A stretch of 21,239 nucleotides of DNA from a virus: the IMG/VR virus record IMGVR_UViG_3300024510_000011, positions 1 to 21,239 of that record; one strand, written 5' to 3'. The position numbers and the translations under genes are program-made. The notes under the pieces are model-generated. The model saw nothing but the letters and a program-made list of their open reading frames with translations, was not told the origin of the DNA and made no database searches. Positions 4,515 to 14,581 of this stretch are shown here, in pieces (positions within the stretch are counted from its first letter, which is position 1; each line of letters begins with the position of its first letter).

Positions 4515-5024
4515 TTATCGAATTTGTGCGGCAGTTATGATTACAGAAGGAATTGCAGGATGTGTTGCATTTGCATTTTCATGCTCAATGATTATGTTTG
4601 AATTGTCAGTAAACCATGAAATTTCAGCGTAATCACCGGCAGCAACACTTACAATAAAGTTCCATGCAGCAACAACATACGGGGCATTTGATGGAACAGT
4701 TAGCTTAGTATCTGAGTTATCAATGTTATTACCATTGAGTTTGAACCAGACATCTACAGTATTACCGGAACCTCCGCCGCCAGTGTTATGAAATTGCGCG
4801 GAAAACTGGATGTTGTAAGTTCCAGCATGGGCAAAGGTGATTTGGCTTTTGGTGGCCTCGTCACCTAATTCCATCGTAACGCCATCAGCATCAGCGGTAT
4901 TTTCACAAAACATCAGGTGTGGAGTCACACCATCGGTTTGATCTAAGCTACTGTAAAAAGACCCGTAGTAACCAGCAAATTCTGTGGTCTGATTGACAGT
5001 GATACCGCCAGCAGTACGTAGCAT
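4515..5024 (-). CDS. Jelly-roll-like (C1q/TNF-like) virion surface protein
   Basis: This 169-residue protein has the pattern FAGYYGSFYSSLDQT, then SQITFAHAGTYNIQFSAQFH, then VDVWFKLNGNNI, then VVAAWNFIVSVAAGDYAEIS, then PSVIITAAQIR. I recognise this strand order from C-terminal domains of phage tail fibres and host-binding appendages with a C1q/TNF-like jelly-roll. Here the domain stands almost alone, with only about 15 residues before it. It could attach to another fibre or be a small head or tail decoration that binds host polysaccharide. The gene begins with a TAATG overlap with the preceding small beta protein, hinting that the two are made together. Confidence 0.65.
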   Translation of the reverse strand: MLRTAGGITVNQTTEFAGYYGSFYSSLDQTDGVTPHLMFCENTADADGVTMELGDEATKSQITFAHAGTYNIQFSAQFHNTGGGGSGNTVDVWFKLNGNNIDNSDTKLTVPSNAPYVVAAWNFIVSVAAGDYAEISWFTDNSNIIIEHENANATHPAIPSVIITAAQIR

Positions 5025-5350
5025 TACACGCCATCCCCAGGAGTGATGTTTACAACAGCAGTTCCAGATGCAGTAGCGCCAGTGAAGTATTGATTTGCGT
5101 TAAACGTAAATACTTCAACGGAGTTCGGCATCAGACTGATTGTCGATCCGGTAACAGTTACATTTGCCATCGTTTCTGCTGCGTTAGCAGTAGCGCCAAA
5201 GCCCATGTAAACCGCCACATTGCCAAGATTGTGAACGCGAAACTGTGTTGCTCCAATCGTTGACGAAACGGCTTGAACAGCGGTAGGCGCAGAAACGGCA
5301 GCGGTAAACGTCACCGTGTTGCCTTGCGGAGTAAATGCCATGATGCCCAT
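5024..5350 (-). CDS. Small beta-rich virion protein, paralogue of 14252-14581
   Basis: This 108-residue protein is Gly/Thr/Val-rich and probably all beta. It aligns end to end with the protein at 14252-14581: both have AFTxxGNTVxFTAxVxAPxxVQAV near the start and YFTGxTAxGTA followed by TPGxGx at the end. I choose the ATG at 5350 (MGIMAFTPQ), coupled to the previous stop as TAATG; the ATG at 5341 is an equally simple alternative. A longer frame from 5428 overlaps the upstream gene and is not similar to the paralogue. Its position next to the jelly-roll protein suggests a small tail- or head-decorating subunit, but no function is known to me. Confidence 0.65.
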   Translation of the reverse strand: MGIMAFTPQGNTVTFTAAVSAPTAVQAVSSTIGATQFRVHNLGNVAVYMGFGATANAAETMANVTVTGSTISLMPNSVEVFTFNANQYFTGATASGTAVVNITPGDGV

Positions 5351-5595
5351 TAGATAATCCTCTTGCCGCCTGCATTGCCAGGTTTGCTTGTCGGACTCAG
5401 GCGCTGATCCGGCGAACCAGAAAAACATTGCATACCCATAAACCCGCCAACAGGGTTGGTGCGAGTGGGTTTGCCCATGCCAAAGGTATCAGTAATAGTG
5501 GCGTTCCGATAAGCCTCACCAGCAGGTCGGCGATTGCTTTGTGGGCTTTTATCAGCACTCATATACATTTCAGTCTTTTTGATTGACAGCTTCAT
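5350..5595 (-). CDS. 81-residue protein of unknown function
   Basis: The ATG at 5593-5595 (minus) is preceded by AAAGGAAAC, a good ribosome binding site. An in-frame start at 5643 lacks one and would lie further inside the preceding gene. The product is basic and rich in Gly, Pro and Asn (KSPQSNRRPAGEAYRNATI, then GKPTRTNPVGGFMGMQCF), so it may be partly disordered. No domain is recognised. It overlaps the end of the upstream membrane protein by 26 bases and the next start by TAATG, consistent with the coupled arrangement of this late operon segment. Confidence 0.6.
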   Translation of the reverse strand: MKLSIKKTEMYMSADKSPQSNRRPAGEAYRNATITDTFGMGKPTRTNPVGGFMGMQCFSGSPDQRLSPTSKPGNAGGKRII

Positions 5596-10080: not shown

Positions 10081-11052
10081 TTATCCTCTCGGAGCGGGAG
10101 CTTGTTGGCGGGTAGAAGCAGTCAACTCACGGCCTAAAACTTCGCCCAAAATATCGCTAAGTGCTTTATCTTGCGCCAACTGAAGCTGCAACGCTCTGGC
10201 CTCGTATTGATCGGCAATGCCAGCCATCTTCATGCCTTCTGCCATAGCCCTTGCTCTAGCTTCACTGGTGGCTCTTGCGCGTTGTCCAGCCTGGATTCCT
10301 GCCGCCGCACTGCCAGTAGCAATGTTGCGCTCACTCAATCCTTGTCGCGCTCTGGCTTGCGCCGCCTCAAATGCACGTTGCTCCTGCGGGGTCATGCCGC
10401 CAGCAGACATCCTTGCAGTAGCCTCTTGTGCGGCAGCACGGAACGGTGCGCCAGCCTCGCGTTGCCGACCAGCCATAGCCTCGGCTTCCCTGCGGCCTCT
10501 ACGTGCCAGCAAAGCCTGTCCTAGTGCAGATGCGCCGCCAACACCCAAGCGGGTAAGAGCGGGATATTTGTCTGCCGTTTCTTTTGCGCCACGAAAAACA
10601 TCTTCAATGCGCTCTAAGGCGCTAGGCTCCCTCATTAACTGTGCGCCAGTTTCCCTTTCAACTATGTCTACCGGGCTTACCTGTGGAAAAGCAGAATAAT
10701 CGGTAAGTGGTTGAACTTGTTGAACACTTGGCTCAATAGCGTCACCAAACATCGCACTGTAATCTGGCGTAGTTCCATATTGAGGCTCAAAAGCAGCGGA
10801 AGATTGATAAAGCTGGTCAATTTCCTCTGGAGTTTCGTAAGAATAGTCAAAGCCTTCATCTTCCTGAAACTCAGGCAAGCCAGTATTCGGGTTGGGCTTT
10901 CCACTACCACCAATCCGGCGAAGAAGCTCGGCCTCTTCAGGGGTAATGTGCGCTAGGACAGTATCTCGACCTCTACCAAGACTACGGATCATTTCAGCTA
11001 GTTCATGGGCACTACCAGTGCCGCCACCAGAAAGCATTGCCATTGTTTTCAT
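10081..11052 (-). CDS. 323-residue structural protein with DTVLAHITPEEA motif
   Basis: Near the N-terminus the protein has GRGRDTVLAHITPEEAELLR followed by GGSGKPNPNTGLPEF (about residues 26-62). This is a motif I recognise from virion proteins of environmental podovirus-like phages. Residues about 63-150 are acidic and probably disordered. The C-terminal half is one long Ala/Arg/Gln-rich helix series (AQEATARMSAGGMTPQEQRA and following) with an ALGQALLARRGRREAEAM segment. The start could be M1, M4 or M6. It lies between two other candidate ejection proteins, so an internal virion role is likely. No catalytic residues were recognised. Confidence 0.6.
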   Translation of the reverse strand: MKTMAMLSGGGTGSAHELAEMIRSLGRGRDTVLAHITPEEAELLRRIGGSGKPNPNTGLPEFQEDEGFDYSYETPEEIDQLYQSSAAFEPQYGTTPDYSAMFGDAIEPSVQQVQPLTDYSAFPQVSPVDIVERETGAQLMREPSALERIEDVFRGAKETADKYPALTRLGVGGASALGQALLARRGRREAEAMAGRQREAGAPFRAAAQEATARMSAGGMTPQEQRAFEAAQARARQGLSERNIATGSAAAGIQAGQRARATSEARARAMAEGMKMAGIADQYEARALQLQLAQDKALSDILGEVLGRELTASTRQQAPAPRG

Positions 11053-11053
11053 A

Positions 11054-13480
11054 TTAGAGTCCTAACACTTTACGAAGTCTTAATGATCTACGGTTCCACT
11101 CGGCACTTTGCTCATCTTCATCACCGCTAAACATGGGCTGCTTTTTGCCAATAATACCCGTAACTGAACCACTTATCTCGCGTGGCGATATAGATTCTTG
11201 CGTTACTGAACGCCTCGGAGCAGATGCACCAGCATTAGCACCACCACCACGTTCACTTAACAACAATGAAGCAATTAACTTGTCAAGGCTTGACGGGCCT
11301 TCCGTCGGCTCACGTTCGGTGCCAGGCTCTTCTTCAGGTTCTTCTTCGGTAGGCAAAACTTCCTCGCCTTCAGGTGCAACTTCCTCGCCGATATCTTCTT
11401 CAGGTGCGGCCTCTTCTCCTGCTCCTTCTTCGGCAAGCGCGTCCAGAACCTCCTGATCGCCAATCCCACCCTCTCCAGTTCCCTCCCCTTCTCCAGATGC
11501 CGTTCCCTCTCCAGTTGCAGGCTCTTCTCCGGTTCCAGCCCCTTCTCTTGCCTGGCTTTCTTTTGGAAGTACAGGTTCAGGTTCAACCTCCGGCATGGTT
11601 TCTGGAATGGGTTGTTCTTCAGGCAAAGAAAAATCTACTTTAGCCTCTGGAGTTGGTGCCGTTTCCCCGCCAAATAAATCAAACTCAGGCAAAAATTCTG
11701 CATCCGCTTTAGCGGCAGGCTGCGTTTCTGGAACAATAAATGCAATAGTTCCATCAGGTAGCGTTTCCGCAGGTATCCCCTGCGCGGCCATTTCATTAGC
11801 TTCTTCATAAGTTGCAAGGCGCATTCCATCAGGGATGCCAGTAACAGATTCAGACCCTTCTGCTCCAGCGTAAAGGGGTGAACCTCTTACATCAAGGGTT
11901 GTTTTATTAAGGCCAGATACATCTGCAAGCATTAAATTTTCAGATGTTTCACGTGAAACATCCTCTGGTTGTTGCGGCGCAACAATGGCAGTTTCTTGGG
12001 GTTGGGTAGCAGTTTCAGCCATTGCCGCCCCAATCTCAGCATCTTCAATGTCTGATGGTGCCGTTCCAGCGGTAATGTTATTTACAATGTCTGTTACTTC
12101 GCCTCTTACGGCGCTAACCCCTGCTGCGACAAGAGTATTTGCTAAGGCGGCAGCAGCATCGCCTCCGGTGGCCTCGGCAACAATGGCTGCGGTTACGGCT
12201 CTTTCTGCTGTATCCGCTACTTTATTAGCTAAATTTGCATCAAAACCAACGGATTCCAGCGCGCTAGAAACCTCGGCTGCAACGCCCACATTAGCCAGTG
12301 CAGCGCCAGTTCCAGCGGTCAAAGCAGACTTAATAGCGCCATCAAGGAAGTCACCACCGTTAATTTCGGCTGTTAAGCCACCAATAATGGACGCTGCCGC
12401 AATATTTGCCGCAATCGTGCCGCCCATAGCTTGAGCGAGGGCCGCTCCCATGCCAGGAAAAACAATGGCACCAATAATTAACGGAATAAATCGTCCAAAC
12501 CCACCGCCACCCATACCTTGCCGCTCAAATACCTGCCAAATTGGAACGCCAGCCTCATGTTCCGATCCAAATTGATTAGCAACATCTATTTGAGCCTGTG
12601 AAGTTGTGTAACGAGCGCCTCTCGCGCTAACAACTTCAGGCTGATTTAAGAAGGTATTTTTTAACGCCTCTGAAAGGAGTGCTGTATTTACTCCTGGGCC
12701 ATAGCCAAGGCTACTACCGTTTTGCCCTACGTTCTTGACGTAGAAATCCAGAGCCACTTCATCGGGGTTTTTAGCTGGGGTTTTGCCTTGGGCTTTTAGC
12801 CTGTCGTATTCATTCCAAAGCTGGTTGCGAGTATTTGCTGCAATGACGTTTGCTTTATATTGAGTCGGATCAATATGCGACCAGTCGGTTACTCGTCCAG
12901 CAGCATATTGAGTGCCGCCCCAAAGCGCATTTAGGTTAAATGGCTGGCGGCTAGAAAGCCCTTCATATACGTTATCAATATTCCACGGCACATAGCCACG
13001 GGAATAAAATTGCGACGCTAAATTTGCGTCTGACAAATATTGTTCTTTATCACCCCAAATATAACGATCTTCAGAATCTTCACCGCCAGAACCCAATGGG
13101 CGAAATACCATCCCATTATCTTCATCGTATCGTTTTGTAAATAATTGTTTACTTCCAGTATCGACATATATGGCAGGCCTATCTTCATCAGCCTCACGAT
13201 AAATCTCGTACCGCCCAGAAGGGCTAACGGCACCTCCAGAATACGGAACTCTTTGATATATGGCCGTAGATACATAACCACGATACAAATCATTTAGTTG
13301 CTTGCTTGGTATTTGACTTACAGATGGAATAGATTGTCCAGAGGATGAAGATCGGCCAGAATTGGTGGCAAGACCCAACCCACTATAAGTGTCTCCTTGA
13401 CCAGTATCTTTTCCGGCAATTCCAGGAGTATATGTATATCCCTGACTTCTCAACCAATCTTCATAGGACATAACAGCCAT
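11054..13480 (-). CDS. 808-residue virion protein with Gly/Ala membrane-like region and acidic linker
   Basis: Regions in order: a polar, Tyr-rich N-terminal part (1-330); a hydrophobic Gly/Ala-rich section from about 335 to 460 (FIPLIIGAIVFPGMGAAL, then NIAAASIIGGLTAEINGG, then AIKSALTAGTGAALANV) that could insert in membranes; a linker; a long Glu/Pro/Gly low-complexity acidic tract from about 613 to 733; and a basic C-terminal 60 residues. The build fits a protein ejected or associated with the tail during DNA entry. It heads the run of four such genes. Codons 507-512 (DVSRET) encode a perfect parS sequence, described separately. The low-complexity tract creates several long shadow frames on both strands. 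Confidence 0.6.
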   Translation of the reverse strand: MAVMSYEDWLRSQGYTYTPGIAGKDTGQGDTYSGLGLATNSGRSSSSGQSIPSVSQIPSKQLNDLYRGYVSTAIYQRVPYSGGAVSPSGRYEIYREADEDRPAIYVDTGSKQLFTKRYDEDNGMVFRPLGSGGEDSEDRYIWGDKEQYLSDANLASQFYSRGYVPWNIDNVYEGLSSRQPFNLNALWGGTQYAAGRVTDWSHIDPTQYKANVIAANTRNQLWNEYDRLKAQGKTPAKNPDEVALDFYVKNVGQNGSSLGYGPGVNTALLSEALKNTFLNQPEVVSARGARYTTSQAQIDVANQFGSEHEAGVPIWQVFERQGMGGGGFGRFIPLIIGAIVFPGMGAALAQAMGGTIAANIAAASIIGGLTAEINGGDFLDGAIKSALTAGTGAALANVGVAAEVSSALESVGFDANLANKVADTAERAVTAAIVAEATGGDAAAALANTLVAAGVSAVRGEVTDIVNNITAGTAPSDIEDAEIGAAMAETATQPQETAIVAPQQPEDVSRETSENLMLADVSGLNKTTLDVRGSPLYAGAEGSESVTGIPDGMRLATYEEANEMAAQGIPAETLPDGTIAFIVPETQPAAKADAEFLPEFDLFGGETAPTPEAKVDFSLPEEQPIPETMPEVEPEPVLPKESQAREGAGTGEEPATGEGTASGEGEGTGEGGIGDQEVLDALAEEGAGEEAAPEEDIGEEVAPEGEEVLPTEEEPEEEPGTEREPTEGPSSLDKLIASLLLSERGGGANAGASAPRRSVTQESISPREISGSVTGIIGKKQPMFSGDEDEQSAEWNRRSLRLRKVLGL
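11945..11960. other. parS: Perfect parS (ParB-binding) site inside a virion gene
   Basis: The 16-base sequence TGTTTCACGTGAAACA is identical to the chromosomal parS consensus bound by ParB (Spo0J) in very many bacteria. It is the core of a 20-bp perfect palindrome, GATGTTTCACGTGAAACATC, at 11943-11962. It lies in codons 507-512 of the 808-aa gene, in a presumably flexible linker. I saw no other CACGTG-centred site in the window and no ParA or ParB gene. The match itself is certain; that ParB binds it in the host is inferred. Confidence 0.85.
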
Positions 13481-14251: not shown

Positions 14252-14581
14252 TTAGAGTCCTTCTCCCGGCGTTACATATACCGTAGCAGTTCCAGCGGCG
14301 GTAATGCCAGTAAAGTAAGCGTTTGGCGGCGCAGAAATGATCTTATCCGTGCCAGGAAGCAGGGGATAACCATATCCCGTTGATGTCACAACAACAGCAT
14401 TATTTGAGGCTTCTCCTGATGTTGTGCCATACCCCAAAAATACGGTCACATTGCTAGGATTTTGCACCTCATACTGCGTGGTGCCGATTCCTACGGCCAC
14501 AGCCTGAACAGGCGATGGTGCGGCTACGTTTGCAGTAAATGCAACTGTGTTACCTAGCTTGGTAAATGCTGTCACATTCAT
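14252..14581 (-). CDS. Small beta-rich virion protein, paralogue of 5024-5350
   Basis: This 109-residue protein, rich in Val, Thr, Gly and Ala, is probably all beta. It aligns along its entire length with the protein encoded at 5024-5350, sharing AFTxxGNTVxFTA, VQAV, IGxTQ and YFTGxTAxGTA, and the final TPGxGx. The flanks differ, so this is a gene-size duplication rather than a repeat of a longer block. It is preceded by a 62-base gap containing a perfect hairpin and a GGACGG ribosome binding site. It lies among tail genes, so a small tail or capsid surface subunit is the best guess. Confidence 0.68.
   Translation of the reverse strand: MNVTAFTKLGNTVAFTANVAAPSPVQAVAVGIGTTQYEVQNPSNVTVFLGYGTTSGEASNNAVVVTSTGYGYPLLPGTDKIISAPPNAYFTGITAAGTATVYVTPGEGL

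Follow-up and report, generated by a model that had tools for sequence, protein, structure and literature searches.

ParB is a CTP-dependent clamp, and phages such as P1 and N15 possess their own ParA and ParB together with phage-specific centromeres. To our knowledge, phi29 is the main known example of a virulent phage that uses the ParB of its host. Since the Spo0J-dependent entrapment of phi29 in spores, in which the host Spo0J (ParB) is implicated, was already reported in 2005 (Meijer et al. 2005, as cited in PMC9437464), the use of a host-type parS by a phage is not new in principle. The cyanophage Mic1 is described as having a ParABS system of its own (PMC7156551). The parS mimics of SGI1, according to PMC10954446, bind the ParB of the IncC helper plasmid, stabilise SGI1 and displace the helper plasmid. 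For bacterial chromosomes, the parS consensus is given as mainly TGTTNCACGTGAAACA (PMC7022226), and the ParB-parS complex is presented as the standard loader of SMC (PMC9564211, PMC8494293).

Phage type and genomic context

The window, i.e. the whole stretch of viral DNA analysed here, is a linear fragment of 21,239 bases of a viral record and its source is a 37–38 kb SU10-like podovirus. Among the neighbours of the gene carrying the parS site are genes with matches to major head protein families, to the SU10-type adaptor, to a tail fibre, to a RusA-like resolvase/PDDEXK endonuclease and to an M15 peptidase. The window also contains two paralogous small genes (positions 5024–5428 and 14252–14581), the second of which is about 50% identical to the relatives' copies of the first. 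Long contigs of the phage family cluster at about 37–38.5 kb and the relative G002 (IMGVR_UViG_3300005805_000217; 37,132 bp) is, because of this clustering, probably near-complete. Among ten ORFs of G002 scanned against Pfam, an SU10-type portal, a YqaJ exonuclease, a C5 DNA methylase, ArdC and a DnaN-like clamp were recognised; a 215-aa protein of this genome (L226:16836–17480) matches the central domain of the DNA polymerase sliding clamp.

The ParB_N domain was absent from all 11 records of the family that were tested, among them the window, the L122 record and G000–G002. The preliminary description of this DNA had stated that no ParB is present in the window, and this holds for ten other records of the family as well; a phage-encoded ParB, as part of a ParABS system, was therefore rejected. 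Of the genes scanned, none was assigned to lysogeny or partition, and a search for tRNA genes as a clue to the host found none. Among cultured phages, ArdC had its best-scoring matches mostly in Caulobacter phages, which is a weak hint at Alphaproteobacteria as the host group. The sole genome match was a 37.6-kb contig (L230) binned in a Balneolaceae MAG and related through its tail protein (73%); since its length equals the phage genome size, this contig is probably a misbinned free phage. The Balneolaceae MAG itself contains parS, which is likewise a weak clue to the host.

The parS site and the gene carrying it

An exact parS within a 20-bp palindrome had been claimed previously, and scanning of the whole window confirmed it as the sole match at up to three mismatches (Table 1). 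The site is of the chromosomal type, i.e. a palindromic 16-mer fitting the consensus. Under a first-order Markov model of the window, 8e-6 exact copies of the 16-mer are expected by chance, which is of the same order as the 5e-6 calculated earlier, and 1.2e-4 copies of the degenerate consensus TGTTNCACGTGNAACA are expected under the same model. The site codes, on the minus strand, for codons 507–512 (DVSRET), as had been indicated, and the approximately 2300 ways of encoding this peptide were also reproduced (2 × 4 × 6 × 6 × 2 × 4 = 2304).

Table 1. Positions in the window of the parS site and of the regions of the gene in which it lies
Feature	Position	Strand	Remark
parS 16-mer TGTTTCACGTGAAACA	11945–11960	.	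identical to the site of ParB loading on bacterial chromosomes
20-bp perfect palindrome GATGTTTCACGTGAAACATC enclosing parS	11943–11962	.	sequence scan
parS-bearing ORF, 808 aa, late virion-gene block	11054–13480	-	no Pfam or PHROG match
Conserved N-terminal region, about residues 75–504	11969–13258	-	about 61% identity to the G002 homologue
Variable E/P/G/A/T-rich linker, residues 505–728, with parS at its N-terminal edge	11297–11968	-	
Conserved C-terminal region, residues 729–808	11057–11296	-	present in distant relatives without linker or parS

Because the 808-aa protein has no family match in Pfam or PHROG, its designation as a virion protein follows from the position of its gene; the earlier term virion gene is thus supported by the location in the structural block, but not by any assignment to a family. 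The linker had been considered flexible. Its composition and its extreme variation in length agree with that view, but the AlphaFold model of the protein (mean pLDDT 37) is too poor to prove flexibility or to indicate a function. In the close clade, the linker comprises 180, 224 and 549 residues and contains E/P/A/T-rich repeats, both flanking domains being conserved.

Conservation of the site among relatives

Scans of IMG/VR delivered two close relatives covering the linker, L122 and L205/G002, so that three genomes including the window could be compared; the IVP453 alignment and the N-terminal region of the gene, used as queries, retrieved no more close genomes covering it. L122 matches the window at 59% over the C-terminal half of this gene and at up to 97–100% in other genes, and L205/G002 at 97% in the MCP, 89% in the tail and 55% overall in the homologue of the 808-aa gene. 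Both relatives carry, within the same gene, the consensus-fitting variant TGTTCCACGTGAAACA (positions 431–446 in L122 and 8488–8503 in L205/G002), and neither the L122 record nor the G002 record, the latter being 37 kb long, contains any other site at up to two mismatches.

The protein around the site differs among the three genomes. The peptide reads QQPEDVSRETSENLM in the window, TEEAVVPRETMGEL in L122 and VEEPIVPRETTQDA in L205, the flanks not being conserved. The DNA alignment of the window with L122 ends at nucleotide 1527 of the gene, inside the window parS, and resumes only after nucleotide 1855, the parS of L122 being situated about 130 bp downstream of this break. Between L122 and L205, a 28-bp island centred on parS is all that aligns in the linker's upstream half (before nucleotide 498 of L122). 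The codon preceding the parS core is GAT, GTT or ATT (Asp, Val and Ile, respectively) and always ends in the T needed by parS. The 549-residue linker of G002 has a single lysine and a single arginine, the latter encoded by the CGT of parS.

Calculated with the codon frequencies of the virion genes, the probability of the parS codons given the peptide is 0.0021 for the window and 0.0009 for G002. At fourfold-degenerate sites the window and G002 agree at only 44% (823 sites), so that their agreement in parS is not simply a matter of recency. The site is found in all three close genomes, in differing peptide contexts and written in minority codons. The low codon probabilities, the low fourfold agreement and the retention of the site within a non-aligning protein together show, for the three genomes compared, that parS is under selection as DNA, not as peptide. 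The idea of a real parS selected as DNA was in this way supported: the alignment of relatives, suggested in the preliminary description as a check, gave the opposite of a conserved peptide with scrambled bases, since the relatives retain the bases while the surrounding peptide and the position change.

Homologues with a 40–64% identical C-terminus have a different middle part of the gene and lack the E/P-rich linker, and the best parS match in them has 3–6 mismatches. A further 35 records, several of them near 37 kb, contained no parS at up to two mismatches. Sites with two mismatches were seen once in G006 (position 14367, read as YVPRET in another gene) and in MW202825 (position 28668), both near chance level. 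Since the distant relatives have neither the linker nor parS, both features belong to the close clade and not to the whole phage type, and because near-complete distant relatives of about 37 kb are without parS, phages of this type can do without it.

parS sites in other viruses

The exact parS 16-mer was found in at least 120 viral contigs, in comparison with one contig for the mirror-image palindrome of the same composition. Among 100 parS-bearing viral records tested, ParB_N scored above the cut-off in three, a figure limited by the fragments and host-derived contigs in IMG/VR. The 120 listed loci contain 146 sites, 56 of which fall within open frames 150 aa or more in length; these frames include a head-tail adaptor, DNA polymerase, primase/helicase, transglycosylase-containing virion proteins and DarB-like polyvalent proteins. 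Cultured phages with parS matches are Listeria phage A511, Ruegeria phage RpAliso and Microbacterium phages.

The Microbacterium phage Paschalis (L240, 2506–2521) has the same perfect 20-bp palindrome as the window, in an annotated DNA-binding-protein gene, and many related Microbacterium phages have near-identical matches to it. Arrays of five parS sites exist in some of the listed contigs (L017, L044), and an in-frame VSRET reading within P/T/E-rich stretches recurs across unrelated proteins (L002–L121). A polyvalent protein (L012:3–4064) with a match to the PHROG 'ParB C-terminal domain' has a parS encoded within its own C-terminal portion, at residue 1327 of 1354. The inovirus bajarodino virus 6 (L243, PQ006149.1), with a genome of 5.9 kb, contains perfect parS sites at positions 635, 662, 1414, 2857, 4096 and 5628, three of the six being located 1–2 bases past annotated stop codons; these six sites suggest that a chronic infection may be partitioned by the host ParB.

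It is a tentative proposal that lytic and chronic phages of many bacteria might, as a general strategy that has gone largely unrecognised, use the ParB of the host through orphan parS sites in coding sequence. The literature considered, which comprised neither subscription papers nor preprints, yielded no survey of phage parS sites unaccompanied by ParB. If the proposal is true, virulent phages of non-sporulating hosts would gain a segregated, plasmid-like waiting state or an ordered positioning within the cell, and the window clade would be one instance, in which a fast-changing protein linker harbours parS. With so many contigs bearing the exact site, and nearly all of the tested ones without a ParB domain, many phages regarded as purely lytic may be positioned, compacted or inherited via the segregation machinery of the host, provided that ParB loads there.

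Possible role of the site

The window parS is presumably a functional loading site for the host ParB, to which a probability of roughly 0.8 may be assigned; that the host protein loads there is likely in view of the lack of any ParB found in the phage group and of the precedent of phi29. As the relatives keep parS while the surrounding protein changes, the virus probably uses the chromosome-sorting machinery of its host. After infection, the host ParB would load at the phage parS and spread over the phage genome, most likely tying it to the ParA, nucleoid or origin machinery of the host. The phage genome tied in this manner could be positioned, and could be inherited under slow or deferred lysis, as in starved or dividing cells; the role of Spo0J for phi29 in sporulating Bacillus would be the model for such inheritance. 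Because no lysogeny or partition gene was seen among those scanned, a role in partition would need deferred lysis or a carrier state. Among the conceivable purposes, positioning or partition may be placed first, recruitment of SMC next, and titration, protection or silencing last.

If the peptide V[SP]RET were selected and the DNA match incidental, the same peptide core would be expected, as observed, in all three homologues; this is, however, very improbable, since minority codons are used with a joint probability of about 0.001–0.002 per genome, the residues flanking the core differ on both sides, other phages read the site in another frame (FHVK) or carry it outside genes, and the mirror control speaks of one contig against at least 120. 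Codon choice, differing flanks and non-homologous positions were the grounds for rejecting peptide selection on DVSRET. A 16-mer arisen by chance or passed on by neutral inheritance is hardly credible: close relatives are few, and the window and L122 are close to each other (97% in some proteins), but the number of copies expected in the window is minute, consensus sites occur in three of three genomes, their flanks are non-homologous and the synonymous divergence from G002 is near saturation. Chance origin was rejected from the expected number together with the mirror control.

Other explanations accept the loading of ParB and concern its use. A single parS could in itself equally serve SMC loading or another role, and the host ParB might be loaded mainly to recruit SMC/condensin onto replicating phage DNA for its compaction and untangling, not for partition. 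Such a use is consistent with the standard function of ParB-parS as SMC loader (PMC9564211, PMC8494293), would be satisfied by one site per genome, is compatible with a lytic lifestyle in which there is no carrier state and agrees with the sites in late genes of lytic phages; yet distant relatives of similar genome size manage without parS, and it is considered unlikely as the main function. A site directed against the host or serving protection, by titrating ParB, coating the DNA against defence or silencing late genes early, is less likely still. The mimicry by which SGI1 is stabilised and its helper plasmid displaced, as described in PMC10954446, the late region in which the window parS lies and the anti-restriction genes of G002 (ArdC and DNA methylase) all point in that direction, but titration would favour arrays and there is one site per genome.

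Comparison with known systems

The window sequence is identical to the consensus TGTTNCACGTGAAACA of bacterial chromosomal parS (PMC7022226), but it is located inside a phage gene, away from any bacterial origin. With P1, N15 and Mic1 the window phage shares a ParB-parS combination on a phage genome, but no ParB_N domain was found in the tested records of its group and its parS is of the chromosomal type. SGI1 resembles it as a genetic parasite with orphan parS copies exploiting the ParABS of another replicon; SGI1, however, is an integrative element with plasmid-type parS and a plasmid ParB, whereas the window belongs to a phage with a chromosomal-type parS.

phi29 (L242, NC_011048.1) has four TGTTTCACGTGGAACA sites, at positions 10445, 15903, 17243 and 18760, within genes 10, 15, 16 and 17 or at their ends, the site in gp17 reading DVPRETS, which resembles its reading in the relatives of the window; TGTTTCACGTGGAACA is the variant of L122 and L205 read on the opposite strand. 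Like phi29, the window phage is a small podovirus with a host-type parS and, as far as its group was tested, without a ParB of its own; three of the four phi29 sites lie within virion, lysis and early genes. The differences are that the window phage represents an unrelated lineage with SU10-type portal and adaptor, that one site each is present in the window and in the 37-kb G002 record instead of four, and that phi29 infects a sporulating Bacillus, whereas the host of the window phage is not known to sporulate. What is new here in comparison with these systems is an unrelated phage clade with a single site, in which parS is maintained within a fast-changing coding linker.
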